Assembly: GCA_023474015.1 (NCBI GenBank) | Contig: JAMCYN010000101.1 | Location: 62,001-126,000, forward strand | Direction of reading: 5' to 3' | From: Armatimonadota bacterium | GTDB lineage: Bacteria; Armatimonadota; UBA5829 | DNA length: 64,000 nt | Shown: one piece after another, positions 8 through 23,343 of the stretch | Layout: each line of letters begins with the position of its first letter | Position numbering within the stretch: position 1 is the stretch's first letter | Program-made: the position numbers and the translations under genes | The notes under the pieces: generated by a model | The model's database searches: none | Seen by the model: the letters and a program-made list of their open reading frames with translations, nothing else | Told to the model about the DNA's origin: nothing

Positions 8-95
8 GAGTTCGGAGTTGGGAATGCGGAGTGCGGAATGGGGGAAGGTCCCTTCACTCCGCACTCCGCACTCATACACTCCACACTCCTTCTAA
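8..95. repeat. Heptamer palindrome, copy 1
   Basis: Tandem units of about 7 bp (GGAGTGC/GGAATGC type) on the left are mirrored by ACTCCGC units on the right, around the centre GGTCCCTTC. This is the first of many such elements in the window and lies just downstream of the ANTAR gene. Confidence 0.7.
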
Positions 96-667
96 ATCTC
101 GTGCGCGATGATAATGGCTTCCGCGATCTCTTTCATCGAGCGGCGCTGGTTCATGCTCTGCTGCTGAATGCGGCGGAAGGCGTCGGCCTCGCCCATTTTG
201 TATTTGTCCATCAGTATGCCCTTGGCGCGGTCGACGATCTTGCGGGTCTCCAGCTTCTGCTCGAGGTCGCCCAGGGTGGATTCGAGATCCTGCTGTTCGA
301 GATAGCGGGCTATGGCTATCTCGATAGCGGGCAGGAGGTCCGATTCCTGGAACGGCTTTACCAGATAGGCATAGACCCCGGCCTCCTTCGCGCGTTCGAT
401 GAGGTCTTTCTGGCTGTAGGCCGTGAGCAGCACGACGGGCGCGATCTTCTCCTCGGAGATGAGCTTAGCGGCGTCGAGGCCGTCCATCACCGGCATCTTG
501 ATGTCCATAATGACCACATCCGGCTTCAGCGAGCGCGTGAGATCAAGCGCCTTCTGGCCGTCGGCGGCTTCTCCCACGACCACATGCCCCATCTCCTCGA
601 TAAGGGCTTTCAAATCCATCCGTATAATCGACTCATCGTCGGCAATAACCAATCTCAACTGGCTCAT
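92..667 (-). CDS. ANTAR-domain response regulator (AmiR/NasT type)
   Basis: This 191-residue protein is a receiver fused to an RNA-binding ANTAR domain. The receiver shows the acidic pair D10/D11, the phospho-acceptor D55 in VVIMDIKMP and the switch lysine K104 in LVKPF. A coiled linker (about 120-135) leads to the ANTAR helices (about 135-190) with RAKGILMDKYKM and a terminal helical segment. Proteins of this family bind paired hexaloop hairpins in nascent RNA and prevent termination. The start at 667 has GGAG seven bases upstream. No cognate kinase is adjacent, so the signal and RNA targets are unknown. The 3' end runs into a heptamer palindrome. Confidence 0.92.
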   Translation of the reverse strand: MSQLRLVIADDESIIRMDLKALIEEMGHVVVGEAADGQKALDLTRSLKPDVVIMDIKMPVMDGLDAAKLISEEKIAPVVLLTAYSQKDLIERAKEAGVYAYLVKPFQESDLLPAIEIAIARYLEQQDLESTLGDLEQKLETRKIVDRAKGILMDKYKMGEADAFRRIQQQSMNQRRSMKEIAEAIIIAHEI

Positions 668-707: not shown

Positions 708-713
708 TATAAT
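708..713 (+). promoter_or_regulatory. -10 box of the presenilin-like gene
   Basis: TATAAT with a GTG just upstream, followed by AGGAG at 731-735 and a TTG codon at 743. Transcription from this box would begin near 720, which rules out the longer TTG start at 716. Confidence 0.55.
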
Positions 714-742
714 CATTGTCAAAGGTCACCAGGAGCTTTCTA

Positions 743-1744
743 TTGTTCAAGAAGTCCCCATTACCGGGTCTGCTGCTTTCAATACTGGCCTATTTCGCCT
801 TGTGGCTGCTGGTCCCAAGGGCGACGTTTCTTCCTCATATCATCAGCATCATAGACGCGGGGATCCTGATCACTAAGGGACCTGCCGCGTTCTTGTTGAG
901 CCTCGGCGCCGTGGCTATCATGGCGCTACCCACCGTCGCGTTCATGGCAATCCAGATAGCCCTGGTCTATTTCTTCGCCAAGCTGAAACTCGACTTCTGG
1001 CGCGCGCTTTTGGCGCTGACGCTGTCGGTGGGGCTGATCGCGGGGATGCTCGCCATCGTGATCTTTCAGCACAGACTGCCCGCGCAACTGCATCACTATC
1101 CGACCCTTAAGGACCACCTCGATATAATGTCGATATACTACGGACCGCTCGCAATGCCGATGAATGTGCTCAAGGTGCTGGCGGCGGCGAGTATCGGCTG
1201 CCTGGTGGCCGTGCGGGTGCGGGACAAAAACCTGCTCCTGCCGGTGGTGATGATCGCCGCGTGTATCGACTTCTGGACGGTTTTCTTCGGTCCCGTGGCA
1301 GCCATGCTCAAGCACGCCCCAAACATCGCTCCCGCCGTAAGCGCGCCGATTCCGCAGGTCGGGACGGGCACATTCATGCCCATCACAATGATCGGGCCGG
1401 GAGATTTTCTGTTCATGGCGCTCGTGTTCGCGGCCGTTCACCAGCACAAGATGAACGGCGCGCGGAACTACCTGTTCGTGTTCTGCGCGATGAGCCTGGG
1501 GATGCTCGCGGTGATGTTCGGCCTGTGCAATTCGCTGCCGGCGCTGATCGTGCTGGCGGTGGCTGTTGTCTCGGCGAACTGGCGGGAGTTCCACCTGACC
1601 CGGCAGGAGAAGATTTCGGTGCTTATCGTCGCCGTGCTGCTGCTCGGGCTGATGACGGCCGCATGGTCCGTGCTGAAGGCTCGTGTGGAAAAGAACATGG
1701 ATCACAAGCCCAAGTCGGTATCCATGGCGATGCGCAAAATATAG
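743..1744 (+). CDS. Polytopic membrane protein with presenilin/SPP-like GxGD motifs
   Basis: The protein has 333 residues from TTG at 743, which has AGGAG seven bases upstream. It is almost entirely hydrophobic, with about nine membrane segments. Three motifs occur in the order and spacing of family A22 intramembrane aspartyl proteases: an Asp in a membrane helix (D176 in CIDFWTVFFG), a GPGD (218-221, D221) opening the next helix, and LPAL (265-268) at the start of a later helix. Signal peptide peptidases read YDIFWVFG, GLGD and PAL at these points. The tyrosine before the first Asp is Ile here and the GLGD leucine is Pro. By inference it cleaves membrane peptides. It could instead be an inactive relative or an unrelated membrane protein. 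It stands alone between divergent and convergent neighbours. Confidence 0.6.
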   Translation: MFKKSPLPGLLLSILAYFALWLLVPRATFLPHIISIIDAGILITKGPAAFLLSLGAVAIMALPTVAFMAIQIALVYFFAKLKLDFWRALLALTLSVGLIAGMLAIVIFQHRLPAQLHHYPTLKDHLDIMSIYYGPLAMPMNVLKVLAAASIGCLVAVRVRDKNLLLPVVMIAACIDFWTVFFGPVAAMLKHAPNIAPAVSAPIPQVGTGTFMPITMIGPGDFLFMALVFAAVHQHKMNGARNYLFVFCAMSLGMLAVMFGLCNSLPALIVLAVAVVSANWREFHLTRQEKISVLIVAVLLLGLMTAAWSVLKARVEKNMDHKPKSVSMAMRKI

Positions 1745-1766: not shown

Positions 1767-1916
1767 CTACTCCACCACCAACCTCACATCCACGTTCCCC
1801 CGCCTCGCCTTGGAATAGGGACAGATCTTCTCATGCGCCTGCCTGACTATGTCTTCCGCCTCGGGCTTGGAGACTCCTGGCAGCTTGCAGTGCAGATCGA
1901 GGTTGCGGGAAGTCGG
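1767..1916 (-). pseudogene. C-terminal remnant of an Ohr/OsmC peroxidase
   Basis: About 47 residues match the end of organic hydroperoxide resistance protein: the LDLHCKLPGV strand, the helix with AEDIVRQAHEKICPYS (which includes the second redox cysteine), and the final RGNVDVRLVV strand. The N-terminal half with the peroxidatic cysteine is absent. The open frame extends to about 1988 but that part does not look like Ohr. The remnant sits immediately downstream of the phosphatase gene. It is a decayed gene that cannot encode an active dimeric enzyme. Confidence 0.7.
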
Positions 1917-2043
1917 ACTGTAACTCTCGTTCGGTATTACCAAATACGAGCGCACGTTGTTTTGCGCTTTCCGTGGGAGCGCCAACAAAGTGCTGTCGGA
2001 CGTGCATACTTGACACCGCTTCTAGAGAGCAAGGACAGCCGGC

Positions 2044-4320
2044 CTACCGGACCTTAACAACCACCATCACCACATCGTCGGCAATCCGCCCGTGGCCGAA
2101 CTCGAGCAGGGCGTCGTGGAGGCGGTCGGCTATCTGCTGAGCACTGAGGTGGGCGTTCGCGGCGACAAGCTCCATGGCCCTGTCCCTGCCGAACCGGAGA
2201 TTTGCGACGCTTGCCTCGACGAGGCCGTCCGTATACATTAGAAGTACGTCGCCCGAGGCAAGGTCCGCTTGCTGTTCGTCGTAGGACGTGCCAGGCTTGA
2301 TGCCCAAGAGCATCCCATCCGCCACGAGTAGCCGCGCGGTCTTGTCCGCCACTTTGTAGAGAATGGCGGGCTCGCAGCCGGCGTTGGCATAGGTCAACTT
2401 TCTTCTTGCAAGGTCGATGACGCCGTAGAACAGGCTGATGAACATCTCCGTGCGCGAATCTTCACAGACCATGTTGTTCGTCTTAGCAAGGACCTCGGCG
2501 GGCGAGGCGCACTCACGGGCGTAGGTCCGAAGCACATACTTGCCCATAGTCGTGTATTCGGCGGCCTCTACGTCACTCCCCGCCACATCCCCGACCACGA
2601 TCCCGATCTTCTCCGGCCCAACCTTGATGAAGTCGTAATAGTCCCCGCCGACCCCGTACGCGGGCAGGAACTTGTGGCCGATATCGAGCCCATCGGTCTG
2701 GGGAAGATCGGTCGGCGCCAGCTTCTGCTGGAGTATTTCGGCCATCTTGTACTTTTGGCGGTAGATCCTGGCGTTGTTGATGGCAACCCCGGCCAGGTCT
2801 CCGAGCGGTTTGATTATCGACTCCTGCGACCTGGCGAACCTCCGCCCCTGTCGCGAAAACCCCACGGCGACCGCCGTCAACCTGCCCCGGTTCTTGATAG
2901 GTATGCAGATGGCGCTTTTCAGGTCCTCGGACTTGGATATATCGGTGCGCAGCGACGGTGAGGCGGAGATATTGCGCACCACCAGCTTCGATCCGGTGTG
3001 CTTGACCCGCGCCGCGAACGGCGCAGCAAGGTCATAGTAGACATATTTGCGCCGCGTCTTCAGCCCGGATGCGTGCCCAAACCTGAACCGCTCGCTCAGC
3101 TCATCGACAAGCAGCAGCACGCACACATCCAACTGGAAAACTTTGCATATCTCATCGGAAAGCTGGCGAAGAACGTCGTCGAGGTTCAGCGTCGAGGTGA
3201 CGGTCTTGGATATCTGCAACAGACTCCCAAGCTGCTTGGTTCGCCTGTTCACGCTTGCATAGAGCCGCGCGTTCTCGATGGCGACGGCCATCTGGTTCGC
3301 GACCGTGCCGAGTATTTCCAGGTCCCGCTCGTCGAAAGCCCGGTCGGGCTGGACCGTGTTCACGTTCAATACGCCAATGACGGCGCCCTTCACCTTCAGC
3401 GGCACCGACGCTGCGGAATTGATGCTGTCGCGGTAGAACGGCATCCGGAACCGCACGTCCCTTCTTGCATCCGCGATCAGGGCACTCTCGCCGTGCTCGG
3501 CGACCCATCCAGCAATGCTCGATCCCACCTGCTGAGATGTTTTGCGAACGAAATTCGAGGCCAGCCCGCGTGACGCGACTATCTCGAGCCGGTTGGTCTC
3601 GTCATTGACGAGCATCAGCGAGCCTGCGTCCGCTCCGACAGCGGCCATGCTCTGCTCGAGAGCGATGTCGAGGAGTTTCTCGAGGTCCAGAGTGGAACTG
3701 ACGGCTTCGCTGACCCGGTTCACCAGTGAAAGCTCTTGAATCTTGCGGTCCGCAAGCCGGATAAGCTCGTCCTGGTCCTCCGGCGTGTTAACGTTTGGGA
3801 GCGATGCTCTCGCCTTCCATGCGGCCAGCGCTGCCTGGCTCGCCACCACATAGAGAAGTTGGACATCGGCCGGGCTGAAAACACGAGCATTCTCGCCGAT
3901 TGCCACTATCGCGCCGACGCTGACTTCGCCAACCCGCATCGGCAGTGCCAACGCCGAGGCGATTCCAGCCCTCTTCGCCAGTTCGGCAAGTTTGGAGGAC
4001 CTGAACGATGGGTGCGGATAGGTCACGGGGCCGGATGATCCAAGCGCGGCGCGAGCCACTTCCCGAGCGGCATCCTGAATATCCTGCTCCGTAGTGACTC
4101 CGACGCTTCCACCGACGGTCAACTGGCCGGAATCCTCGTGCAGAAACACGATGACCTTCGAGACGTGCAAAAGGGTCGCGCCCGCGTCCGCCGCTGCGGC
4201 AAAGGTCGAGTCGGCCTCCGCGCCGCTGAGCGTTTCAGACAGGTTGGCGAGCGCGACCACGATACCGTATTGATTCTCGGGAGAGTCGTTGTCGTCGGCT
4301 TTTGCTATGCCTCTGAGCAC
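2044..4320 (-). CDS. Multi-GAF PP2C (SpoIIE/RsbU-type) serine phosphatase
   Basis: This 758-residue soluble protein has three GAF-like sensor domains (about 20-170, 195-350, 365-515), a short helical linker with QKYKMAEILQQKL, and a SpoIIE-type PP2C phosphatase (about 545-758). Metal-site motifs are visible: GGDYYDF, VVGDVAG, MYTDGLVEA and ADDVVMVVV. Such enzymes dephosphorylate STAS-domain anti-anti-sigma factors in partner-switching pathways. No anti-sigma kinase is adjacent, but a STAS protein is encoded at 26658-27071. The ATG at 4320 has AGGAG ten bases upstream, and that AGGAG lies inside a tandem GTTAGGA-type repeat, so the repeat appears to supply the ribosome-binding site. Confidence 0.9.
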   Translation of the reverse strand: MLRGIAKADDNDSPENQYGIVVALANLSETLSGAEADSTFAAAADAGATLLHVSKVIVFLHEDSGQLTVGGSVGVTTEQDIQDAAREVARAALGSSGPVTYPHPSFRSSKLAELAKRAGIASALALPMRVGEVSVGAIVAIGENARVFSPADVQLLYVVASQAALAAWKARASLPNVNTPEDQDELIRLADRKIQELSLVNRVSEAVSSTLDLEKLLDIALEQSMAAVGADAGSLMLVNDETNRLEIVASRGLASNFVRKTSQQVGSSIAGWVAEHGESALIADARRDVRFRMPFYRDSINSAASVPLKVKGAVIGVLNVNTVQPDRAFDERDLEILGTVANQMAVAIENARLYASVNRRTKQLGSLLQISKTVTSTLNLDDVLRQLSDEICKVFQLDVCVLLLVDELSERFRFGHASGLKTRRKYVYYDLAAPFAARVKHTGSKLVVRNISASPSLRTDISKSEDLKSAICIPIKNRGRLTAVAVGFSRQGRRFARSQESIIKPLGDLAGVAINNARIYRQKYKMAEILQQKLAPTDLPQTDGLDIGHKFLPAYGVGGDYYDFIKVGPEKIGIVVGDVAGSDVEAAEYTTMGKYVLRTYARECASPAEVLAKTNNMVCEDSRTEMFISLFYGVIDLARRKLTYANAGCEPAILYKVADKTARLLVADGMLLGIKPGTSYDEQQADLASGDVLLMYTDGLVEASVANLRFGRDRAMELVAANAHLSAQQIADRLHDALLEFGHGRIADDVVMVVVKVR

Positions 4321-5250: not shown

Positions 5251-5817
5251 TTGTCCGCGGAACACATCCCAGTGCCTCGAGATTCGGCCGAATACGCTGA
5301 GATGGTAGCAGAGGTCTTCGTCGAAACCGTTCGTAAGGCGGCGACCAAGGCTATGTGCTGCGAGTACGACAGCGAGGAGATCACACCCTCGCTGATGGAA
5401 TCGTTGCAATACGTCTATATCCACGGGCCGTCGCCGATTCGCGAAATCGCCTCGGGGATGGAAGTCAGCGTCTCGGCAACCAGCCAGCAGGTCGAAAAAC
5501 TTGTAAAAAAAGGCTTGGTAACCCGAAGCGAGAATGAATCGGACAGGCGGCTGAGCCGGATCGAACTGACCGTGGCGGGCCGCGAAGTTGTCAGGCAGAT
5601 GCGGGAGCGCAGGTCCGGCTGGTTCGGTTCGATAGTCAATGCAATGCCCGAAGCCAAGCGCAAGGCGTTCCTGGAAGGGCTCGAGAGCTTCCTGCGCTTA
5701 TCGTTGGCGGATGAAGAAAGTCTTGACCGCGCCTGCGTCAGGTGTGGAATGGAGCACGTTGCGTATTGCGTGGTCAGCAAAGTAAAGAATGAGCGCAAGC
5801 ATCATATCGAGGGGTGA
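5251..5817 (+). CDS. MarR-family regulator with Cys-rich tail
   Basis: A 188-residue winged-helix regulator. The HTH region (about 55-110) shows SPIREIASGMEVSVSATSQQ and the wing SDRRLSRIELT. The C-terminus carries C162xxC165 and C173, and C36-C37 lie near the N-terminus. These could bind an iron-sulfur cluster or act as redox switches, which fits the genes it precedes. The start is TTG, with AAGGGG upstream. Its stop overlaps the ribosome-binding region of iscU, so translation is probably coupled. The cysteine function is inference. Confidence 0.85.
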   Translation: MSAEHIPVPRDSAEYAEMVAEVFVETVRKAATKAMCCEYDSEEITPSLMESLQYVYIHGPSPIREIASGMEVSVSATSQQVEKLVKKGLVTRSENESDRRLSRIELTVAGREVVRQMRERRSGWFGSIVNAMPEAKRKAFLEGLESFLRLSLADEESLDRACVRCGMEHVAYCVVSKVKNERKHHIEG

Positions 5818-5822
5818 TTTCT

Positions 5823-6257
5823 ATGAATCAGAGCTATAGCACCAAGGTAATGGAGCACTTCGCCAGCCCGCACAATGTGGGAGAGATACCTGACGCGGAT
5901 GGGGTCGGGAAGGTCGGCAACCCCGTCTGCGGGGACATCATGAACATGTATATCAAGGTCCGGGACAACGTCATCACCGACGTTAAGTTTAAGACCTTCG
6001 GCTGCGGCGCCGCGATTGCCACCAGCAGCATGGCGACCGACATGATCATGGGTAAGACTATCGAAGAGGCGCTGGAGTTGACCAACGACGCGGTCGCCGA
6101 GGCGCTGGGCGGGCTGCCCAAGGTGAAGATGCACTGTTCGGTATTGGCCGAGCAGGCCGTAAGAGGCGCGATCGACGATTATCTCAGTAAGACGACCGGC
6201 AAGGGGCTGGAACTCAAGAAAGACGAAGAGCTCCACCACTGCGTGATCGAGAGTTGA
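5823..6257 (+). CDS. iscU: IscU/NifU-type iron-sulfur scaffold
   Basis: A 144-residue scaffold on which iron-sulfur clusters are assembled before transfer to target proteins. The three conserved cluster cysteines are present in GNPVCGD, TFGCGAAIATSS and MHCSVLAE, with the Asp next to the first. The C-terminal NifU domains are missing, so it is IscU-like in length. ATG at 5823 follows GAGGGG with eight bases between; a GTG at 5814 is less likely. It is the middle gene of a MarR-IscU-Nfu operon. No cysteine desulfurase is adjacent, so sulfur must come from an enzyme encoded elsewhere. Confidence 0.92.
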   Translation: MNQSYSTKVMEHFASPHNVGEIPDADGVGKVGNPVCGDIMNMYIKVRDNVITDVKFKTFGCGAAIATSSMATDMIMGKTIEEALELTNDAVAEALGGLPKVKMHCSVLAEQAVRGAIDDYLSKTTGKGLELKKDEELHHCVIES

Positions 6258-6276
6258 TATTCCAAGGAGCAAACAA

Positions 6277-6531
6277 ATGACCGAACAGACCAAAGATGAT
6301 CTCCGCCAGCGGGTGCAAGCGGCGCTGGAGCAAGTCAGACCGAACCTGCAGCGGGACGGCGGCGACGTCGAACTGCTGGATGTAGTTGACGGCGTGGCGA
6401 GGGTGAGGCTTCAGGGCGCGTGCCACGGCTGTCCGATGGCCGCGATGACCCTTCAGATGGGCGTCGAGAGAGTGCTGAAGAGCCAGGTCCCCGAGCTTAA
6501 GGGCGTGGAGAACGTTCCGGACGAGGAGTAG
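6277..6531 (+). CDS. Nfu-type (NifU C-terminal) iron-sulfur carrier
   Basis: An 84-residue single-domain protein of the NifU C-terminal family. It has the DGGDVELLDV core and the CHGCP CxxC pair that holds a cluster between two subunits. It would carry clusters from the upstream IscU to apoproteins. CAAGGAG lies just before the ATG, 19 bases after iscU. A perfect hairpin follows, closing the operon. Confidence 0.93.
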   Translation: MTEQTKDDLRQRVQAALEQVRPNLQRDGGDVELLDVVDGVARVRLQGACHGCPMAAMTLQMGVERVLKSQVPELKGVENVPDEE

Positions 6532-6555
6532 GCCGCCCGAACAACATGTCAAAAT

Positions 6556-6590
6556 GAGGACGCCCGGACGGGAACAGTCCGGGCGTCCTC
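6556..6590 (+). terminator. Hairpin ending the MarR-iscU-nfu operon
   Basis: GAGGACGCCCGGAC pairs perfectly with GTCCGGGCGTCCTC across a 7-base loop. The stem is strong but the T run after it is weak, so it may terminate transcription in both directions or work mainly to protect the 3' end. Confidence 0.6.
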
Positions 6591-6617
6591 GCGTCTGTCA
6601 ACTTCAGCCGGGCGATG

Positions 6618-6797
6618 CTAATTGAACCGCCCCGAAGATTGATGGCCCTGACGCGGCCGGGCACTTTTTTGGAGGTCCACTTTCGAGCGTCGGTCCGCGA
6701 AGTCTTCACGCAAGGCCCCGTCGAGAAGTTCCAGGATTCTCTGCTCGGCAAGCGCTGCTGTCTTCGCGTACTCGAACATGGCTTTTTTGCTCATCAT
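6618..6797 (-). CDS. Small hypothetical protein
   Basis: A 59-residue protein starting MMSKKAMFEYAKTAALAEQR. The helical N-terminal 35 residues are followed by a basic, low-complexity tail. The start is chosen because GGAGG lies six bases before the ATG at 6797; the same frame is open to 6968 but that part overlaps the lipoprotein gene. No family is recognised. It probably shares a transcript with the lipoprotein gene upstream. Confidence 0.5.
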   Translation of the reverse strand: MMSKKAMFEYAKTAALAEQRILELLDGALREDFADRRSKVDLQKSARPRQGHQSSGRFN

Positions 6798-7776: not shown

Positions 7777-9240
7777 ATGCAAAAACGTAATCTCCTGTTG
7801 GCTACAATATCGGGTTTACTGTTGGCCCTGGCGATGCCGAAGCCTGGGATGTGGCCGCTCGCGTGGGTGGCGCTGGTTCCGCTGCTGGTTGTGATGCGCC
7901 GGTCCGGGCCTCGCGCCGCCGCCGTCTGCGGCTTCGTTACGGGGACGGTATACTTCGGAGTCATACTGTTCTGGCTGACTCTGTTCGGCCATCTGCCGTG
8001 GGTGGCGACGGTCTTTCTTCTCGGCGGATTGCCGATGGCCCTGTTCGCCGTAGTGGGTTGCCGATTGATGCCCGAGCGCATTGGGTGGTGGGGATATATC
8101 GCGATTCCAGCGGCGTGGACGGCCGTTCAGTGGCTGAGGTCTCTTGGGCCGCTCGGACTGCCCTGGGGGAGCATGGCGCATATCCATGCGAATGTCCTCG
8201 GCCTCATTCAGATATCATCGCTCACCGGCGCCTGGGGGATCGATTTCCTCGTATGCTTGTTCAACGTGGCTATAATAGGGACGCTGTCGGCAAAACGCGG
8301 GCGATGGCTGCCCCTTGGCCTCGTATGCGCGCTCACTGTTGCCACGTTCACGATCGGCACTTGGGCTGTCAGGAGCGCTCCTACACCCGCCGGGCGCGTA
8401 AGAGTAGCGATTATCCAAGGCAATCTTTCGCAAGATGTGAATGTCACCCCGGACTACCTCGGCTACGCATTCGACGACTACGAGTCGTTGAGCCGCGAAG
8501 CCGCGAAGTCCAGGCCCGATTTTATAGTATGGCCCGAAACCACGCTCCCCGCCGCGATCTCGCATACCGGCTGGGAGGCGGCAATCTCCAGACTCGCGCG
8601 CGAGACCGATGCGAACTACATCATCGGAGCGTGTGACTCATCCAATGCCCCATCCAATCGCCTCAACTACAACACCGCGCACTTCTACAGCCGCTCGGGC
8701 CTCAAGCTCGGCGTCTACCACAAGGTCCATCTTGTTCCTTACGGTGAATACGTGCCGCTGCGGGAGCAAATGCCGTTCCTGAAGCGTTACGGCATCCGCG
8801 AGCGGGACGTGCTGCCGGGCGATTCTCATAACCTAATCAATACGGAGATCGGCAAGCTCGGGGTCGGCATATGCTTCGAGTCACTGTTCTCTCAGATTTC
8901 GCGGCTTGAGACCAACGACGGCGCGGCAGTGCTGGTCGTAATCACAAACGACGGCTGGTTCCAGCGCTCCCAGGCCGCATATCAACACCTGATGATGGCC
9001 CGACTGCGTGCAGTGGAGAATAGGCGGTATGTGATCAGAGCGGCTGCAACGGGGATATCGGCCGTCATTGACCCCTACGGCAGGATTATCAGCGAACTGG
9101 GCATTTACCGGCGGGGAATAGTCGAGGCTAATATCGAACCCATGCGCGCGAAGACTCCATACACGCGCATGGGCGATGTCTTTGCATACATTTGCGTGGC
9201 TATCACCATCGCCGCATCAGTTGCTCCGAAACGGAAGTAA
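7777..9240 (+). CDS. lnt: Apolipoprotein N-acyltransferase
   Basis: A 487-residue inner-membrane enzyme that adds the third acyl chain to the N-terminal cysteine of lipoproteins. Six or so membrane helices (residues 5-200) precede a nitrilase-like domain (about 205-460) and a last helix. The catalytic Glu-Lys-Cys triad is visible as E254 (WPETTLP), K316 (YHKVHLVPYGEY) and C366 (GVGICFE). Length is normal for the family. It is transcribed divergently from a lipoprotein gene. Its presence supports a diderm envelope, although some monoderms have Lnt-like enzymes. Confidence 0.95.
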   Translation: MQKRNLLLATISGLLLALAMPKPGMWPLAWVALVPLLVVMRRSGPRAAAVCGFVTGTVYFGVILFWLTLFGHLPWVATVFLLGGLPMALFAVVGCRLMPERIGWWGYIAIPAAWTAVQWLRSLGPLGLPWGSMAHIHANVLGLIQISSLTGAWGIDFLVCLFNVAIIGTLSAKRGRWLPLGLVCALTVATFTIGTWAVRSAPTPAGRVRVAIIQGNLSQDVNVTPDYLGYAFDDYESLSREAAKSRPDFIVWPETTLPAAISHTGWEAAISRLARETDANYIIGACDSSNAPSNRLNYNTAHFYSRSGLKLGVYHKVHLVPYGEYVPLREQMPFLKRYGIRERDVLPGDSHNLINTEIGKLGVGICFESLFSQISRLETNDGAAVLVVITNDGWFQRSQAAYQHLMMARLRAVENRRYVIRAAATGISAVIDPYGRIISELGIYRRGIVEANIEPMRAKTPYTRMGDVFAYICVAITIAASVAPKRK

Positions 9241-10324: not shown

Positions 10325-12619
10325 CTATGCCTTGCTTTCCGCGCTTCTGCGCCAGGTCGCCACGAGTCCGCCCACGATCATCAGCACGGTCCCGACCCAC
10401 AATAGCCAGATCAGCGGCTTGGTGGTAACTTCGATGATCGCCGTCTCCTTGATGCCGGGACCCGCGACTGTCAGACTTGCTCCAACCGAGTTCCCCATAT
10501 GGCCTTCTTCCGAATCAGTAATATACCGCTCGAAGTTGAGCGCCAGGCCGTCGACCTCCACCGGGGCGCCCTGCGAGACGGTGATATGTTCGGTCGTGCC
10601 GTCGCTCTTAACGTAGTCCAAATCGACGGAGCGGGCCTCGACCTGCATCCCCGTGAGCCTGAGGGTCGCGCCCGTGCCGGGAATTTCCGCAGGCAGCGGA
10701 ACCAGTCCATCAGGACCAAATGACGCGGTGGGCGTGACGTTCGTGCCCTGTATCGCCGCCGGCGAGATGTATAGATCGGAGATCAGGGAGGACTTGATAT
10801 AGGGCCTGGAGACCGAGCCCCGGCGGTCCGCCTGCATAGTCAGCGGCGCGTCGAATGAGCGCCCGCCGCGCTCGACCCTGATTTGCATGATCTGCTCGTC
10901 GGCGCCGGACATTGCGGTTCCCTTGTAGGTAAATCCGTAGCCGTAAGCCTTCTTGGGCGCATCATTCAAAGGCAATGACAACGGAGTCTTTCCGCCGCTG
11001 CAGGAAAACACAATCCCAAGCAGTGTGAGAGCGACTCCGATATGCCCAATGTGCGCCCCGGCTCGGAGCGGAACGGCCTTCGCACACCTTGCCACGCTTA
11101 GCACCAGCGCCGCGATGCCCGACCCGATCAGCAGAATGATCGCCACCCGCGCGGCCAACCCGTCCGCGCCGCCTGGAAGCAGCCTCGCAAGTAATCCGTC
11201 CACAGCATTGGACACCGTCCCGGCGAAGGCCGCCACAATCGCAACCACGGCAACAACACCCAGCGCCCGCGCCAGGCCATTGGATTGACGTTGAGAAGGT
11301 TTGGGGAGGGCGAGACTCTCGCCGAGCTTCGTCTCTTCGGAGGCACAAGGCTCAGCAGGAGCTTCGCCATCCCGTGTTTGCACAGCTTTGGCGCTCCAGC
11401 CCAGCACGGTCGCGAATGCGATCAGAATCGCGGTCGCGATGGCAATCGGAGTGGCCATGTGGGTGTAAAACGTCGGGCTGGGGTTCGAGTTGGAGAATAT
11501 GGGGAATGAGGTCCCAATGACGACCGTGATGGCAAAAACGCTCATCACCACCGCGCCGCCGATTATCGCATAGTCCTTGGAGGCGATTTGTATTGGCTCG
11601 GATTCACTGGCCATCGAGTTCCATCGCCAGATCAGCATTCCCACGCAAAGAACGACGTAGAATATCATACCCGCGAGCAGGTAGCCATGCGTGCCGAGGT
11701 CAGCGAACGAATGGTTCGACACCTCGGAGAGCACTCCGCTGCGGGTGAGGAACGTGGCGTAGATTATCAGCAGAAACGTGCCGAACGCCAACATAAGGTT
11801 CGCGCGGGTCATCCTGCCCCGGTTTCGCTGAAGCAGCAGGCCGTGGACCAGCGCGGTGCCGGTCAGCCAGGGCACGAACGAGGCGTTCTCGACGGGGTCC
11901 CAGCCCCAGTAGCCACCCCAGCCGAGCACTTCGTAAGACCAGATCATCCCGAGTATCAGGCCCGCGCTCAGAGAGACCCATCCGAACAGCGCCCACGGCA
12001 GACAGGGCCGGACCCAGTCGCCGGTTTCACGCCTCACAATCGCCCGTATCGCATACGCCGCCGGCACGATCAACAGCGCATATCCGAGAAATACGACCGG
12101 CGGGTGGATCGCCATCCACGGGTTCTTGAGCAGTGGGTTGAGACCTCCGCCGACCATACCGGGCTGGTAGTTCGGCATTATCCTGAACGGGTCCGCCACC
12201 ACCAGCAGCACAGTGAAGAACGTCATCACCGAGCACCAAAAGGTCATGAACAACGAAACGTCTTCTCGCCGCCGACGCGCGAATGCCAGCCCGATGACAC
12301 CGACCATCAACGCCCAGAGGAGCATCGACCCCTCCTGGCCCGCCCAGAACGACGAAACGCGATAGATCAGCGCGTCCGCGGGGCCGCTGTAGTCGTGGAT
12401 ATACGCAATGTCGTATCTCTTCAGCGACAGAATCTGCTCGAGAAGATAGACCGAGGCATACGCAACCGCGACTACGCAAGTATAGTATGCGCCCCGGGCT
12501 ATGCGCGGCAGCCACTCCGGCCCGCGCTTCGCAAACGCGAGCACCAGATAGGCCGCAAGCGACACGACCGACGCAGCCAGCGCGATGTATATGGTGAAAT
12601 TGTCGGCTGATAGTTTCAT
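10325..12619 (-). CDS. ccmF: Cytochrome c haem lyase subunit CcmF
   Basis: A 764-residue, many-pass inner-membrane protein that transfers haem from CcmE to apocytochrome c. The WWD haem-handling motif is seen as WGGYWGWDPVENASFVPWL. ATG at 12619 overlaps the ccmE stop (TAATG). Around residues 415-442, between membrane segments, an insertion reading GEAPAEPCASEETKLGESL is encoded by a dispersed repeat that also occurs at 36616-36685. The frame is kept, so the protein is probably functional. No CcmH or CcmG gene is seen nearby. Confidence 0.94.
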   Translation of the reverse strand: MKLSADNFTIYIALAASVVSLAAYLVLAFAKRGPEWLPRIARGAYYTCVVAVAYASVYLLEQILSLKRYDIAYIHDYSGPADALIYRVSSFWAGQEGSMLLWALMVGVIGLAFARRRREDVSLFMTFWCSVMTFFTVLLVVADPFRIMPNYQPGMVGGGLNPLLKNPWMAIHPPVVFLGYALLIVPAAYAIRAIVRRETGDWVRPCLPWALFGWVSLSAGLILGMIWSYEVLGWGGYWGWDPVENASFVPWLTGTALVHGLLLQRNRGRMTRANLMLAFGTFLLIIYATFLTRSGVLSEVSNHSFADLGTHGYLLAGMIFYVVLCVGMLIWRWNSMASESEPIQIASKDYAIIGGAVVMSVFAITVVIGTSFPIFSNSNPSPTFYTHMATPIAIATAILIAFATVLGWSAKAVQTRDGEAPAEPCASEETKLGESLALPKPSQRQSNGLARALGVVAVVAIVAAFAGTVSNAVDGLLARLLPGGADGLAARVAIILLIGSGIAALVLSVARCAKAVPLRAGAHIGHIGVALTLLGIVFSCSGGKTPLSLPLNDAPKKAYGYGFTYKGTAMSGADEQIMQIRVERGGRSFDAPLTMQADRRGSVSRPYIKSSLISDLYISPAAIQGTNVTPTASFGPDGLVPLPAEIPGTGATLRLTGMQVEARSVDLDYVKSDGTTEHITVSQGAPVEVDGLALNFERYITDSEEGHMGNSVGASLTVAGPGIKETAIIEVTTKPLIWLLWVGTVLMIVGGLVATWRRSAESKA
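11293..11372. repeat. Dispersed repeat inserted in frame in ccmF
   Basis: Shares CCTCCGAAGAGAC and AAGCTCGGCG and CTCGCCCTCCC with the copy at 36616-36685. It adds a hydrophilic loop to CcmF without disrupting the frame. Confidence 0.6.
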
Positions 12620-12996
12620 TAGCTCTTCTTTCCCGCATACCTGGACGGGCACTTCAGCAGCACCTGGTCCGCGATGAACTCGTTCTTCTGATACGTTCCA
12701 CGCACGACGGCGCTGGGGGCGGTATCGTAGTTGGCCGGTTTCACACCCTTGTATCGGACCGGCAGGTAAACGCCCGCCTTGTCCTTAAGCGTGAAAACAA
12801 ACTCGCCGGTCTTGTCGTCATAGCGCGCCTTGGTGCGCAGAATCTTGCCCTGGAACTGCACCGGTCGATCACCGGCGGCTTGCACCTCGACGACCGTGGT
12901 GACATACTGCGCCTTGGTGTGCATGACTTCCTTCACGAACATGGCCGCGAACGCGACGATCACCAGCGCGCCGACAGCATATAGACCCTTATTCAA
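12619..12996 (-). CDS. ccmE: CcmE haem chaperone, CxxxY variant
   Basis: A 125-residue membrane-anchored haem chaperone that takes haem from the CcmABC complex and hands it to CcmF. One N-terminal helix (4-22) is followed by the OB-fold domain. The haem-binding site near the C-terminus reads CPSRY (C116, Y120) where most CcmE have HxxxY. The Cys variant is known from archaea and some sulfate reducers, in systems without CcmH. The start is TTG at 12996, because AGGAGG lies eight bases upstream; it overlaps the ccmC stop. The longer frame upstream is part of ccmC. Confidence 0.9.
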   Translation of the reverse strand: MNKGLYAVGALVIVAFAAMFVKEVMHTKAQYVTTVVEVQAAGDRPVQFQGKILRTKARYDDKTGEFVFTLKDKAGVYLPVRYKGVKPANYDTAPSAVVRGTYQKNEFIADQVLLKCPSRYAGKKS

Positions 12997-13667
12997 GGCT
13001 TGAGCCTCCTGATTTTGGAAACGCGAACTCGGAATATCCAAACATATAGCCACAGCAATCCCAGCATCGCTGAGCCCATGACGATCTTATACTGGGGAGC
13101 GAGACCTCCCTGGCTCGAAAGGGTATCGGTCGGATGCAGGCCGCCCATCAGGCGCGGCAGCACGAAAACAAGCGGGAACATCACCAGGCACGCCAGTATG
13201 TTATACACCGCGCTTACCTTGCCCCGAGGACTGGAGCCTGGAATGGCACTCCTGAGCGCGAAATAGGCCGCGTATACGATCAGCAGCATCAGGATGGTGG
13301 TCTGCCTGGGGTCCCAGTTCCACGCCGCGCCCCACTGGAGCTTCGCGAATATCATCCCTGAAACCGTGGCGAGGCCGGTGAATACGAACCCCAGCCCCGC
13401 CGAGGTCGCTGATTTAGCGTCGGTGATAGCCCTGCCGCTCCTCAGATAGCCGACGGCGTAGACAGTCGAGACGAGATATGCCACCACGGCCATCATCGCG
13501 CACGGCACGTGAAACAGCACGATCCTCGCCGACTCAGGGTCGGCGAATCCCACCGCTGGGGGCACGTAGAGAAACGCGGCGGCTATTACGCCGACCATCC
13601 AGATACCCCACCCCCATTTCAGAGGCGCGGGCATTACAACAGCCTGATTATTGTCTAATCTTCCCAT
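12993..13667 (-). CDS. ccmC: Haem-handling protein CcmC
   Basis: A 224-residue protein with six membrane helices that presents haem to CcmE. The tryptophan-rich motif reads WGAAWNWDPRQTT, and axial histidines are visible in LFHVP and GGLHP. It overlaps ccmB by 13 bases upstream and ccmE downstream, so the genes are translated from one transcript. Length is normal. Confidence 0.94.
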   Translation of the reverse strand: MGRLDNNQAVVMPAPLKWGWGIWMVGVIAAAFLYVPPAVGFADPESARIVLFHVPCAMMAVVAYLVSTVYAVGYLRSGRAITDAKSATSAGLGFVFTGLATVSGMIFAKLQWGAAWNWDPRQTTILMLLIVYAAYFALRSAIPGSSPRGKVSAVYNILACLVMFPLVFVLPRLMGGLHPTDTLSSQGGLAPQYKIVMGSAMLGLLWLYVWIFRVRVSKIRRLKP

Positions 13668-14383
13668 ATAAACCTAAACAACATTAGACTTGCGGTGATG
13701 ACTATCCCGCAGTAGTAGGCGAGCAGTCGAACATCGGCAAGTATCTCACCAACGGCCCCGCCGCGCATCGCCAGGTCCGACCCATGTATCGCAACCGCAA
13801 GCACGGGTATGAGCAACGGAAAACTGATAACTGCGAACAGCGCGCCCTTGGTGACGGCTCGAGCCACCATGCACGCGGCCATCGTCGCGCCCGCGCTCAA
13901 GCCTAAGCCGCCGAGCGTAAGAATAGCGATAAACAGCCCCCATCTCGCGACTGAGCATCCCGTCAGCAGCGCGAAGAGTGGGACGGTCACAATTTCGAGC
14001 GCGATCAGGGTCGCCCAGTTGAACGTCAACTTGCCCAAGTAAACACTATTGGGCCGCGCGGCAAGTTTGAGAGTCGCGGCGGTATAGGTCTCGTCCTCCC
14101 GCACGAACGACCGGCTCAGCCCGGACATCGCTGAGAAGTATATCACAATCCAGAGCATCGCGGACGCCACTGCGCTCTTGCTCCCCCACGCGCCAAGCCC
14201 GAAGGACACGGCCACTGTGCTCGTCACGGCGAAAAGCAATACGGCGCTGAGCGCCTGCCGCGCGCGAAGCTCGCATCTGAGGTCCTTGATCAGCACCGCC
14301 CAGGCGGACCTTGCGTAGTCCCCGATGCCGGGCTGGTGTATCCGATACGGCGAAACCGATGTGGCTCGTTCCACAGTGCTCAC
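13655..14383 (-). CDS. ccmB: Haem exporter permease CcmB
   Basis: A 242-residue permease with six hydrophobic segments and the family signature LIKDLRCELRARQ near the N-terminus, followed by SFVREDETYTAATLKL. With CcmA and CcmC it forms the complex that releases holo-CcmE. ATG at 14383 overlaps the ccmA stop (ATGA). No CcmD-like ORF was seen between the genes. Confidence 0.92.
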   Translation of the reverse strand: MSTVERATSVSPYRIHQPGIGDYARSAWAVLIKDLRCELRARQALSAVLLFAVTSTVAVSFGLGAWGSKSAVASAMLWIVIYFSAMSGLSRSFVREDETYTAATLKLAARPNSVYLGKLTFNWATLIALEIVTVPLFALLTGCSVARWGLFIAILTLGGLGLSAGATMAACMVARAVTKGALFAVISFPLLIPVLAVAIHGSDLAMRGGAVGEILADVRLLAYYCGIVITASLMLFRFIWED

Positions 14384-15197: not shown

Positions 15198-15929
15198 ATG
15201 CTCAAACCTGAAGACTTTTTCGACCTGGAGGGCTTTGAGTTCAGGAGCCTGTTTGACGGCTGCCAGTATGTTTGGGAGGCGCTGTCGAGAGTCGGCAGGT
15301 TCGCGCTCGAGTATATTATGAACGTCGATGGTGATGACACGATCTTCGGGATCGTTATGAACGGCGCCCACATAGACGACCGCAACGCCGTCGTCATCGG
15401 AGAGGGGACCGTGGTCGAGCCGGGAGCGTTCATTCAGGGCCCGGCCATCATAGGCAAGAACTGCCAGATCAGGCACGGGGCCTATATTCGAGGGGATGTG
15501 GTCATCGGTAACGACTGCACGGTGGGCCATTCCTCCGAGCTCAAGAATGCAATTATGCTGGACACCGCGCAGTGCCCGCACTTCGCTTATGTCGGCGACA
15601 GTATTCTGGGGCGCAAGGTGAACCTCGGCGCGGGGACGAAGCTCTCGAACCTGCCGGTGGTGAGCGTGAAGGACGGCGACACGGGCAAGCGGCCTACGGT
15701 CAAACTGGAGATCGAGGGCAAAATATACGATACGGGCCTTGCGAAGTTCGGGGCGATTGTCGGGGACGGCGTGCAGACCGGCTGCAATACGGTGACTAAC
15801 CCCGGCTGCCTGATCGGGAAGAACACCCTGGTCTACCCCAACGTGTCGCTCAAGAAGGGCTACTATCCCCCGGACCGGATCATCAAGCTGCACCAGGAAC
15901 TGACTTCCATCATGAGGGAAGACAAGTAG
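15198..15929 (+). CDS. Left-handed beta-helix acyl/nucleotidyl-transferase-like protein
   Basis: A 243-residue protein made largely of hexapeptide repeats, e.g. VIGEGTVVEPGAFIQGPAIIG and YIRGDVVIGNDCTVG. It resembles the C-terminal half of GlmU-like UDP-sugar acetyltransferases without their nucleotidyltransferase half. The substrate is unknown. ATG at 15198 follows AAAGGAG. The 3' end overlaps the convergent pdxT by 20 bases. Confidence 0.8.
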   Translation: MLKPEDFFDLEGFEFRSLFDGCQYVWEALSRVGRFALEYIMNVDGDDTIFGIVMNGAHIDDRNAVVIGEGTVVEPGAFIQGPAIIGKNCQIRHGAYIRGDVVIGNDCTVGHSSELKNAIMLDTAQCPHFAYVGDSILGRKVNLGAGTKLSNLPVVSVKDGDTGKRPTVKLEIEGKIYDTGLAKFGAIVGDGVQTGCNTVTNPGCLIGKNTLVYPNVSLKKGYYPPDRIIKLHQELTSIMREDK

Positions 15930-16560
15930 CGGTCATCAAAACGAAATACTCGTGCACACGGCTGTCTGAAGTAAGCTCCGGGTGAAACGCGGCGGCGAGG
16001 CAATTGCCTTGGCGCGCCATTATGATCTCACCCTCGTCCAGCGAGGCCAGCACTTCGACACCAGGCCCCGCCTCGGTTATATAGGGCGCACGGATGAAGA
16101 CGGCTCTCAACCTGCCGCCGCGAATACCCTTCACCTCGATATCCGCCTCGAAGCTGTCCACCTGGCGACCGAAGGCGTTCCGGCGGATGGTGACATCCAT
16201 CAGCCCAAGCCTGTGCTGGTCGCTGTTCTCGATCTCCTTCGCGAGCAAGATCATGCCCGTGCAGGTGCCGAAAACGGTCATCCCCTGCCCCACGCGCCGC
16301 CTGATCGCCTCATCGACGCCGTATCGCGCCATCAGCTTGCCTACGGTCGTGCTCTCTCCGCCGGGAATGATCAGCCCGTCGCAGCGTTCGATCTGCTCGG
16401 GCGTGCGGACGGTTTGCGCCTCGACACCATCGATCAACTGGAGCATCTCGATGTGCTTCTGGAAATCGCCTTGGAGCGCGAGCACGCCAATATGGACCGT
16501 GGGGCGGCCCACAAGGCCCGCCCCACTAATCTTGATATCCTGTTGAGCCAATGCGCACAT
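15910..16560 (-). CDS. pdxT: Pyridoxal 5'-phosphate synthase glutaminase PdxT
   Basis: A 216-residue class I glutaminase that supplies ammonia to PdxS. The nucleophile elbow is GTCTGMI, the oxyanion region is IPGGEST, and the catalytic His-Glu lies in AAFHPEL. The N-terminal 20 residues before IGVLALQGDF are longer than usual, so a later start is possible. It begins 6 bases after pdxS and the pair form one operon. Confidence 0.95.
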   Translation of the reverse strand: MCALAQQDIKISGAGLVGRPTVHIGVLALQGDFQKHIEMLQLIDGVEAQTVRTPEQIERCDGLIIPGGESTTVGKLMARYGVDEAIRRRVGQGMTVFGTCTGMILLAKEIENSDQHRLGLMDVTIRRNAFGRQVDSFEADIEVKGIRGGRLRAVFIRAPYITEAGPGVEVLASLDEGEIIMARQGNCLAAAFHPELTSDSRVHEYFVLMTATCLPS

Positions 16561-16566
16561 CGCGAA

Positions 16567-17457
16567 CTACCAGCCCCTTGTCGCCATCAAATCCTTCTCA
16601 TCGAGCTGGCGGATATCCAGCCCCTCCATCGCCTTGCCCAGGCCCTTGGAGAGTTCCCCGATCAGCTTAGCGTCATCGAAGTGGGTGGTCGCATCGACTA
16701 TCGCCTTCGCGCGGCTTGCGGGGTCCTCGCTCTTGAAGATGCCCGATCCCACGAACACTGCCTCCGCGCCGAGTTGCATCATAAGGGACGCATCCGCCGG
16801 GGTCGCGATCCCACCCGCGGAGAAGTTCGGCACTGGGAGCTTGCCGGTGCGATGAATCTCCAGCACCAGGTCATACGGCGCGCCGAGGTTCTTGGCCTCG
16901 GACATCAACTCGTCCTCGCGCATGCACTGAATCTTGCGCATCTCGCTCATCACGGTGCGCATGTGCCTCACAGCCTCGACGATATTGCCCGACCCGGCCT
17001 CACCCTTGGTGCGAATCATGGCCGCGCCTTCGCCGATCCTCCTCAGCGCCTCACCCAGATCACGGCAGCCGCACACGAACGGCACCTTGAACTGGTGCTT
17101 GTCGATATGGAAAGACTCATCCGCGGGCGTCAGGACTTCGCTCTCATCGACATAATCGACGCCGAGCGCCTCCAGCACCTGAGCCTCCGCGAAATGCCCG
17201 ATGCGCGCCTTGGCCATGACGGGGATCGTGACAGCCTCCATAATCTCCTGGATCACCAGCGGGTCGGACATCCGCGCCACGCCGCCGTCCCGGCGTATAT
17301 CCGCGGGAACTCGCTCAAGCGCCATAACCGCGACCGCGCCCGCCTCTTGCGCGATCTTGGCCTGGTCGGCATTCGTCACGTCCATAATGACGCCACCCTT
17401 GAGCATCTCAGCCAATCCGACTTTAGTCCGCCACGTGGACTTCTCCTGATTTGTCAT
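16567..17457 (-). CDS. pdxS: Pyridoxal 5'-phosphate synthase PdxS
   Basis: A 296-residue TIM-barrel synthase that makes PLP from ribose 5-phosphate, glyceraldehyde 3-phosphate and ammonia from PdxT. Conserved blocks are [26 protein letters not shown] with the catalytic lysine, and [14 protein letters not shown] with the phosphate-binding loop. ATG at 17457 follows AAGGTGAT. The leader contains a terminator-like hairpin just upstream, so expression may be attenuated. Confidence 0.97.
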
Positions 17458-17482
17458 GCGAGGATCACCTTCTTTGCGTAAT

Positions 17483-17509
17483 AAAAACCGCCGCAACTGC
17501 CGACGGCGG
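17483..17509 (-). terminator. Terminator-like hairpin in the pdxS leader
   Basis: On the minus strand, CCGCCG pairs with CGGCGG and is followed by TTTTT, 25 to 30 bases before the pdxS start and about 25 bases after the probable transcription start. Its position suggests attenuation rather than ending an upstream gene. Confidence 0.6.
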
Positions 17510-17538
17510 CCTGATCTGACCAGTAGGAATACACTAAT

Positions 17539-17544
17539 ATTATA
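17539..17544 (-). promoter_or_regulatory. -10 box of pdxST
   Basis: TATAAT on the minus strand. Transcription would start near 17532, giving a leader of about 75 bases that includes the hairpin at 17483-17509. The -35 box is not clear. Confidence 0.5.
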
Positions 17545-17574
17545 GCAGATGCGGAGTATGGGCGCTACACGAAA

Positions 17575-17665
17575 TTCGTTTCGAGTTACGGGTTGGCGGG
17601 TTACGAGTTGAAGGAGACGCCTACCCAACCCGCAACTCGTAAACTCGCAAACCCGTAACTCCCGT
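17575..17665. repeat. Heptamer palindrome variant (GAGTTAC type)
   Basis: Units such as GAGTTAC and GGGTTGG on the left are mirrored by CAACCCG and GTAACTC on the right. The unit sequence differs from other copies but the architecture is the same. Confidence 0.65.
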
Positions 17666-21384: not shown

Positions 21385-21426
21385 CCTTGACCTGGGCCCC
21401 AATCTCCAACTACCATGTGCTTACAG

Positions 21427-23343
21427 ATGAAACCCGAGGTTCAAACCAAGCATCTCATACTCGGCACGGCGGGGCACGTCGATCACGGCAAGACGACTCT
21501 CGTCCGCGCGCTCACCGGCATCAACACCGACCGCCTCAAGGAAGAGCAGGTCCGGGGTTTGACAATCGACCTCGGTTTCGCCCACCTCAAGCTGCCGAGC
21601 GGCCTTGTGATGGGGATAGTGGATGTGCCGGGGCACGAGAAGTTCCTCAAGAATATGCTCGCCGGGGCGAGCGGCGTCGATATCGCCATGCTGGTGGTCG
21701 CGGCGGACGAGGGCGTGATGCCCCAGACCAGGGAGCACCTGGAAATCCTCGAAATCCTCGAAACCAGGCTCGGCGTAGTGGCGCTTACGAAAGTCGATAT
21801 GGTCGAGCATGACTGGCTGGAAATCGTCGAGGACGACCTTCGCGGGTTCCTCAAGGGCACGTTCCTCGATAACGCGAATATAATCCGAGTATCCGGCACG
21901 ACCGGCCAGGGCATCCCCGATCTAGTAGCGGAACTCGACCGACTCGCCGACGCCGCGCGCCAGCGGTCCATCGAGGGGCCGTTCAGGCTGCCGGTGGACC
22001 GAGTATTTACCGTAACCGGCTTCGGGACGGTCGTCACCGGCACTCTCACCTCCGGGACCCTGCGCCTGGGCGACCCGGTGAGCATCCTCCCGCAGAAGAT
22101 CGACTCGCGCGTCCGCCAGATCGAGGTGCATGGCGCAAAGCAGGAAACCGTATACGCGGGGACTCGCGTGGCGGTGAACCTGGCGGGAGTGGACGTGCCG
22201 GATATGCAGCGCGGGAGCGTGGTGGTTCCGCCGGGCTACTTGCAGCCGACCAGGGCTATCGACGCCGCCGTGAACGTCCTAAGGGACTCCCCCAGGCCGC
22301 TCACCAACCGCGCCCGAATCAGGCTCCACATCGGAACAGTCGAGGCCATAGGCAGGGCAATCGTCCTGGGCCAAGAGGAAATCGAGCCGGGCGGCAAGGG
22401 ATTCGTGCACCTCAGACTCGAACAACCGATAGTGGCCGCGCGGGGGGATAGATTCGTGCTGCGGTTCTACTCGCCGAGCCACCTGCTGGGCGGAGGAGTC
22501 GTGCTGGACCCCGCCGGAGGCAAGCGAAAGCGCGGCGACAAGGCTCTAATTACACGCCTCGAGCGCACCCTTAAGGGCGAGCCGAGGGATGTCGTCGAAG
22601 ATGCTATGTCGATCTCCGAGATGGGCCTCGTGAAAAAAGACATCCCCCAGCGCACCGGCCTCACCCAGCCGCAGGTGGACGCGGCGCTGGACGAGTTGGT
22701 GTCGGAGGGCCTTGTTGTTGAAGTTTCAACTCAATTCTTGCACAAAGCTGCACTGGATATGATCTCCACCAGGGTCAAGGCCGCCCTAGCCGCCTATCAT
22801 ACGATCTACCCCATGCGCCCAGGGATGCCCAAGGAAGAACTAAGAGTATCGCTCGGCCCCAGGACCGATCAGAAGGGCTTTCAGGCGGTGCTCGGCAAGA
22901 TGGCGTCGGACGGCGAGGTAATCATCGCCGAGGCTACAGTCCGCATGCCCGATCACCAACCCACCCTTAACGACCGCCAGCAGCAGTTGCTCGACCGCAT
23001 CGACCGTGATTACGCCGATTCAGCCTGCAACCCGCCCCTGCTGCCCGATGTCGAGAAGAAATACGGCCCCGAAACCAAAGAAATCGTCGCGACGCTCGCG
23101 GAGCGCGGCGAACTAGTCCGAATCGCCCCCGACCTCCTCTTCCATAGAACCGCCCTTGAACACGCCGAACAGTCGATCACCGCCTACCTGCAATCGCAAG
23201 ACGGAATCACTGTCGCCCAGTTCCGCGACTTGATCAACTCCAGCCGGAAATACGTCGTCCCCCTGCTCGAATACCTCGACGACAAGCGAGTGACTCGGAG
23301 GGAGGGGGATTTGAGGGTGCTGTATGGAAAGCGGGGGCGGTGA
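21427..23343 (+). CDS. selB: Selenocysteine-specific elongation factor SelB
   Basis: A 638-residue translation GTPase that delivers Sec-tRNA to recoded UGA codons. G motifs: GHVDHGKTT (G1), GLTIDLGF (G2), DVPGHE (G3) and TKVD (G4). Domains 2 and 3 follow (about 175-350), then winged-helix repeats (about 390-638) that bind the SECIS hairpin. ATG 21427 is chosen because [19 protein letters not shown] is the usual distance from G1; ATG 21415 is also possible and no clear ribosome-binding site decides. selA, selD and tRNA-Sec are not in the window. Confidence 0.95.

Follow-up and report, generated by a model that had tools for sequence, protein, structure and literature searches.

A presenilin- and signal peptide peptidase-like membrane protein family in Armatimonadota, a probable bacterial branch of the A22 intramembrane proteases

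Introduction

Do bacteria possess their own proteases of the presenilin and signal peptide peptidase (SPP) type? This question is raised by a gene located at positions 743 to 1,744 (forward strand) of a 64,000-nucleotide stretch of Armatimonadota DNA (contig JAMCYN010000101.1, positions 62,001 to 126,000), the whole of which is hereafter designated as the window. The gene opens with a TTG codon and encodes a presenilin/SPP-like membrane protein of 333 residues, for which relatives were found. Eukaryotes are the described sources of presenilin and SPP, joined by archaea, whose version is named PSH (as outlined in PMC2947513). Presenilin- or SPP-like proteases of Armatimonadota were not found in the open-access literature, and, among the papers listed, titles and the starts of abstracts revealed no bacterial A22 protease; one review calls a presenilin homologue bacterial in passing.

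Here, the gene is considered to encode, probably, a bacterial aspartyl intramembrane protease that is homologous to presenilin, SPP and archaeal PSH and that forms a sister branch of its own, found in the majority of the genomes sampled from the phylum. Confidence in the protease reading comes mainly from the predicted fold, the motif columns and the overlap of A22 model matches with family loci, which was obtained without selection.

A family of hypothetical proteins distributed across the phylum

A search of 5.8 billion proteins returned 120 relatives, whose identity to the window protein lies between 100% and about 31%. Altogether, three protein searches returned 120, 134 and 23 proteins (the best 120 of the 134 were listed). 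Family proteins are named 'hypothetical protein' in databases, and the listed names giving an organism were all Armatimonadota/Armatimonadetes, Fimbriimonadaceae or just 'bacterium'. No member outside the phylum was recognized by name among the matches listed, each search having scored about 8,000 candidates and most matches being nameless. A search of a plasmid collection gave a single, chance-like match.

The first family profile, A1, comprises 91 sequences, namely the window protein and 90 of the 120 search matches, with short, partial and near-copy matches left out by hand. It matched 186 of 201 genomes, usually at one locus per genome. These 201 genomes were drawn from the phylum of a relative with 54% identity to the window protein (L001), used as centre, and this phylum was taken as Armatimonadota from the names of the relatives. 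Sixty further regions were fetched in addition to the A1-profile loci, and members were extracted; L064, a near-copy of L063, was left out of profile A2 and of the neighbourhood set described below. Most members are about 270-350 residues long. Two proteins (L079:4710-6221 and L094:3666-5201) carry an extra C-terminal part, very roughly 150-200 residues, past the last helix.

Conservation of the motif residues

The original prediction had singled out three motifs in the window protein. The proposed first catalytic Asp, D176 (codon 1268..1270, forward strand like the following), lies in CIDFWTVFFG, within a helix (residues 162-181) equivalent to transmembrane helix (TM) 6. The proposed second catalytic Asp, D221, ends a GPGD motif (residues 218-221; 1394..1405) at the start of the TM7-equivalent helix, and a PAL motif occurs as LPAL (residues 265-268; 1535..1546) before the TM9-equivalent helix.

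Conservation was followed in 157 distinct family members, comprising the 91 of the closer set A1 (at least 27% identity to the window protein) and others. Six columns are invariant in all 157 (G152, P167, D176, G218, D221 and E289), and the same six are the sole columns invariant in all three separate family alignments. The motifs are thus conserved beyond chance: both predicted aspartates are among the six invariant columns, while the classical YD tyrosine is not kept. P266 and N279 are each found in 154 of 157 members and L268 in 152; PAL is exact in 122, with PGL in 14 and PLL in 12. E289 (codon 1607..1609), a Glu past the PAL helix, has to our knowledge no counterpart among A22 signatures.

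Other positions are more heterogeneous. Position 220 is Gly in 131 members and Ala in 26, which divides the family into GxGD and GxAD sequences; in human presenilin-1, the corresponding replacement of Gly by Ala (G384A) is a disease mutation. The residue preceding D176 is Ile in 90 members, including the window protein, Val in 31, Phe in 13, Ala in 10 and Tyr in two. A similar picture emerged from 51 phylum-wide sequences, the distinct ones out of 73 hidden Markov model (HMM) matches, where D176, G218 and D221 are present in 51/51, P266 in 50, A267 in 43 and L268 in 47, with Gly at position 220 in 28 and Ala in 23. The proposed A22 signature therefore holds for two membrane Asp, GxGD and PAL in the right order, and fails for the tyrosine of YD. 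One locus encodes two family members in tandem (L067:4738-5688 and 5713-6618, forward strand), the first with AAL and the second with PAL.

Predicted fold and membrane orientation

The reading frame, the three motifs and the nine-helix architecture were all found as described in the original prediction, the first from sequence and the last in a predicted model. This model has nine long helices (residues 6-26, 47-79, 85-109, 137-158, 162-181, 219-234, 239-258, 267-278 and 287-319) in addition to shorter ones. The fifth of the long helices contains D176, the sixth has GPGD just ahead of it and at its start, and the eighth carries PAL at its start, so that the two invariant aspartates occupy adjacent membrane helices (162-181 and 219-234). 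Against the concern that an unrelated permease might be at hand, the fold matches of the predicted models were presenilin-1, SPPL2a and archaeal PSH, and no permease. In two models, the Z scores of the presenilin-type matches stood above the next rows. A library of viral structures gave nothing strong, a Megaviridae 'signal peptide peptidase' coming second (E 0.21).

Residues 56-284 of the model align with residues 73-451 of PSEN1, the window protein being 7-13% identical across the shared fold, and the aligned range suggests that helix 47-79 should match presenilin TM1. Presenilin has five helices ahead of the helix bearing the first Asp. In the model, four long helices precede that helix and one follows the PAL helix; one hairpin of TM2-TM5 thus seems to be absent and one helix to be added at each end.

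Lys plus Arg per residue, from the N terminus through the successive loops to the C terminus of the 157 members, alternates as follows: 0.197, 0.062, 0.270, 0.093, 0.348, 0.058 (between the Asp helices), 0.252, 0.022 (before PAL), 0.278 and 0.172 (C terminus). From this positive-inside charge pattern alone, the N terminus is predicted to be inside, and two loops, the one joining the Asp helices and the one before PAL, are predicted to be outside. SPP and SPPL proteases are described as inverted in orientation relative to presenilins, cleaving type II helices where presenilins cleave type I (PMC7768045, PMC7366577). With an SPP-like predicted orientation, the Armatimonadota family should therefore work on type II (N-in) helices.

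Sequence relationship to the A22 families

A sequence link to proteins of known structure was provided by profile A3, built from 30 chosen members. When compared with 177,635 PDB sequences, A3 gave six matches at E<=10, all presenilin-1 or presenilin-2 (best E 4.7e-4), and its alignment places the GLGD of human presenilin-1 on the family GxGD and its LPAL on the family LPAL. However, 14 of the 30 members had been fetched because rows of PF04258 (A22B) or PF01080 (presenilin) touched their loci. These 14 were among 20 fetched regions, and 13 of them were also included in profile A4, from which L086, L090, L091 and L094 were left out. A control profile, A5, was composed of 37 members without the 14 selected rows and, bar a few rows, without the GxAD branch. 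It still ranked presenilin-1 first, at E 0.047, followed by an acetylcholine receptor chain (0.073) and four weaker unrelated matches. Since A5 reaches no more than this, the sequence evidence is weaker than the A3 result alone suggests.

Pfam models of A22 and A24 peptidases were run over the 201 genomes without selection. PF04258 gave 15 rows at E<=10, seven of them on family loci (G157, G184, G092, G187, G070, G144 and G012), including the two best and the sole row over the cut-off (1/201 genomes); the rows in G081 and G192, two genomes for which the listing showed no family locus, were checked and do not lie on one. With PF01080 there were 68 rows, of which at least 11 fell on family loci (G086, G169, G112, G165, G003, G080, G107, G011, G149, G061 and G157), matching profile positions 330-392 in nine and 179-205 in two, and the cut-off was reached in none of the 201 genomes. 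Given that each genome of several Mb offers only about 1 kb of family locus, chance is, on an informal estimate, not expected to produce overlaps of this kind.

The single row over the PF04258 cut-off corresponds to L076, the member in G157. This protein matches Peptidase_A22B with 25.0 bits (curated threshold 23.3; E 1.8e-5) over residues 155-258, a range spanning both Asp, and was found by a family HMM that contained no G157 sequence at E 2.7e-59. Another relative, P0148, has a precomputed PF04258 assignment. Pfam scans of single members were less productive: no A22 family appeared among the best 25 of 35 families for 91 members, and PF01080 was detected in two of 60 others, with a best E of 0.11 (best 25 of 26 families).

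The expectation that profile comparison would connect the protein with A22 was thus realized at the level of the family, through A3, A5 and L076, and not for the window protein alone or for profiles A1 and A2. The claim of a divergent bacterial A22 member gains support from the family profiles, the A22B score of L076 and the predicted fold.

Proposed activity and gene neighbourhood

Catalysis, substrates and cellular role are what we infer from this homology. The pair D176 and D221, carried by neighbouring membrane helices, would activate a water molecule to cleave a peptide bond within the substrate helix, and the PAL segment, together with short strands ahead of the GPGD helix, may hold the unfolded substrate. 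With the orientation predicted from charge, candidate substrates would be type II helices, for instance spent signal peptides, anchors at the N terminus of proteins or membrane-anchored regulators.

Because the gene is near-universal in the phylum and mostly single-copy, a housekeeping task fits its occurrence, and clearance of signal peptides or type II anchors can be offered as a guess. Among the 201 genomes, S49 (SppA-type) peptidases matched in 107 at E 0.001 and exceeded the cut-off in 97. With S49 over the cut-off in just 97 genomes, the family could be the phylum's answer to signal-peptide clearance. S49 was also present in the ten genomes with the best family matches, and in close relatives carrying the family gene, so SppA and the family gene are not mutually exclusive, and the S49 pattern is at most a hint to the role.

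In the window, the gene is flanked on one side by a divergent ANTAR response regulator (92..667, reverse strand; Pfam), belonging to a cluster found near the family gene in other lineages. On the other side is a convergent downstream neighbour with three GAF domains and a SpoIIE phosphatase (2044..4320, reverse strand; Pfam). An AGGAG at 731-735, seven bases ahead of the TTG at 743, favours this codon as the start, with a TTG at 716 as a possible alternative. Read by eye, a TATAAT at 708-713 and this AGGAG make up a candidate upstream region (708..735, forward strand); a promoter scan listed no forward-strand site.

The neighbourhood set covered 62 loci, with the family gene called at 54 and missed by the open reading frame (ORF) caller at eight; the caller also put an ORF on the strand opposite the ANTAR gene of the window. 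No constant partner gene was found across the 62 loci. A response-regulator cluster occurs at 14 loci (12 directly divergent), a GAF cluster at 19 (at 13 of these as the second gene on the divergent side) and leuS at 13 (immediately downstream at 11). In one lineage, the neighbours resemble glycosyltransferase, queA and HMG-CoA lyase genes. Apart from the Pfam-identified examples, neighbours were named by eye. All three Pfam-checked response regulators have an ANTAR domain, and four of five GAF proteins are GAF-GAF-HisKA_2-HATPase kinases, the fifth (L081) being a SpoIIE protein. At eight loci, an unnamed protein of 112-114 residues is encoded directly upstream of the family gene (for example L077:1851-2192 and L082:5977-6312, both on the reverse strand); the two examples scanned gave no Pfam match.

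The pair of response regulator and GAF protein recurs in lineages about 30% identical to the window protein, and a regulatory tie to two-component neighbours is possible, although not general. A sub-case of the protease reading, compatible with it, is that the enzyme performs one regulated cleavage releasing a membrane-bound regulator tied to the ANTAR two-component system. The recurrence of this pair, or of one of its partners, in several lineages and the identity of the checked neighbours as ANTAR regulators and GAF histidine kinases speak for such a function. Yet the link is absent at most loci, other lineages having leuS, queA, glycosyltransferase-like or unknown neighbours, and near-universal presence fits housekeeping; we regard this sub-case as unlikely, if still worth keeping in mind.

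Several other features were noted in the window. A 73-residue ORF at 1767-1988 (reverse strand) resembles, by eye, the C-terminal end of Ohr/OsmC, perhaps as a remnant, and has no Pfam match. At 36803-38611 (forward strand), an HMGL-like enzyme domain is followed, in the same protein, by a dCache sensor domain at the C terminus, which is an unusual combination. Ordinary genes at 10325-14383 (reverse), 7777-9240 (forward), 15910-17628 (reverse) and 21415-23343 (forward) encode cytochrome c assembly proteins (CcmF-like, a second Cytochrom_C_asm protein and CcmB), apolipoprotein N-acyltransferase, an SNO/SNZ (PdxT/PdxS-like) pair and SelB.

Weighing the protease reading

Several observations count against an active A22 protease, and part of them would suit a protein that keeps the presenilin fold as a scaffold, a substrate-binding pseudoprotease or a channel. 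Catalytic activity is a proposal from homology, the YD tyrosine is missing in 155 of 157 members, GxAD replaces GxGD in 26, and E289, which belongs to no known A22 signature, is conserved as fully as both Asp. However, pseudoproteases usually lose their catalytic residues, whereas here both Asp are invariant in all 157 members, GxAD sequences included, PAL is unchanged in 122 and the Pro of PAL in 154. A non-proteolytic function is accordingly judged improbable.

The remaining adverse points concern homology itself, and some of them would be expected if the motifs had arisen by chance in a permease, or another polytopic membrane protein, without kinship to A22. The window protein alone matched no Pfam family and gave noise in NCBIfam (E 0.23), and its PDB matches were two unrelated chains (E 0.11 and 0.19) and no A22 chain. 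Profile A1 matched no PDB sequence, A2 matched two unrelated ones and no A22 chain, and L076 alone retrieved no A22 chain. A4 placed SPPL2a first at E 0.088, among unrelated chains, with presenilin-1 at 0.81. The L076 score is the best among the 186 genomes that contain a member, and counting them raises its E to about 3e-3. For PF01080, the three best rows lie off family loci and weak signal appears in seven of 14 control genomes. PF06550 (archaeal SPP) is over its cut-off in 0/201 genomes and has 0/21 rows on a family locus (rows in G118 and G047 were checked and lie off family loci; G195 has no family match). Foldseek E-values are weak, with 3.0e-3 and 2.4e-2 as the best, and models of helical membrane proteins often give middling Z scores. 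Nevertheless, few columns are invariant and those of the motif Asp and Gly residues belong to them, A22 models land on family loci, two profiles rank presenilins first, and in two models the presenilin-type Z exceeds the next rows, which leaves chance motifs a very small place.

Least plausible of all is a prepilin or preflagellin peptidase (A24, PilD/FlaK type), another GxGD membrane aspartyl peptidase with two membrane Asp alike in kind, as PF01478 exceeds its cut-off in 182 of the 201 genomes and, by eye, none of its listed rows coincides with any family locus listed, the window protein has no A24 match in the Pfam scan, the fold matches are presenilins, and PAL has no place in A24.

Implications

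We read the family, widespread but unnamed, as a sister branch from bacteria within the A22 superfamily, assigned to neither A22A nor A22B. As Pfam already reaches a few members (L076 and P0148), it is half-known to databases. A more ambitious picture, advanced tentatively and with somewhat less than even confidence, is that of a phylum core gene whose product is an active protease of the presenilin/SPP type, forms a branch apart, takes the SPP orientation and serves a basic need, for instance the removal of used signal peptides or of type II anchors. In that case, the clan would predate, or have crossed, the split between bacteria and the archaeal and eukaryotic lineages, and the GxAD branch would work with a change like G384A.

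A compact bacterial branch bears on the origin of gamma-secretase, the enzyme involved in Alzheimer's disease. Its small single-chain members are on offer for structure and inhibitor work, as a simple model and evolutionary relative of presenilin, and the natural variants (GxAD, PGL, PLL and no YD) give a chance to test which signature residues matter.

Comparison with known intramembrane proteases

A24 prepilin and preflagellin peptidases (PF01478), which are GxGD-type membrane aspartyl peptidases too, are encoded by separate genes in the same genomes, show no sequence match with the family and have no PAL. Presenilin-1, the catalytic subunit of gamma-secretase (A22A, PF01080), is closer in predicted fold, although the window protein is only 7-13% identical to it over that fold and no genome reaches the PF01080 cut-off. 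In contrast to presenilin-1, the family has no Tyr ahead of the first Asp, has extra helices at both ends and is predicted to take the opposite membrane orientation; 45 residues separate D176 from D221, without the large loop of presenilin. SPP and SPPL2a (A22B, PF04258) differ in having YD and in lacking the further helix found here after the PAL helix, the window protein itself being below detection with their model; the first Asp lies in the fifth long helix here and in the sixth helix of SPP. PF06550, the model of archaeal PSH, lands on no family locus, and the motifs differ as well: the family has PAL and no YD, whereas the archaeal PSH MCMJR1 is described as having YD and no obvious PAL, with both Asp needed (PMC2947513).
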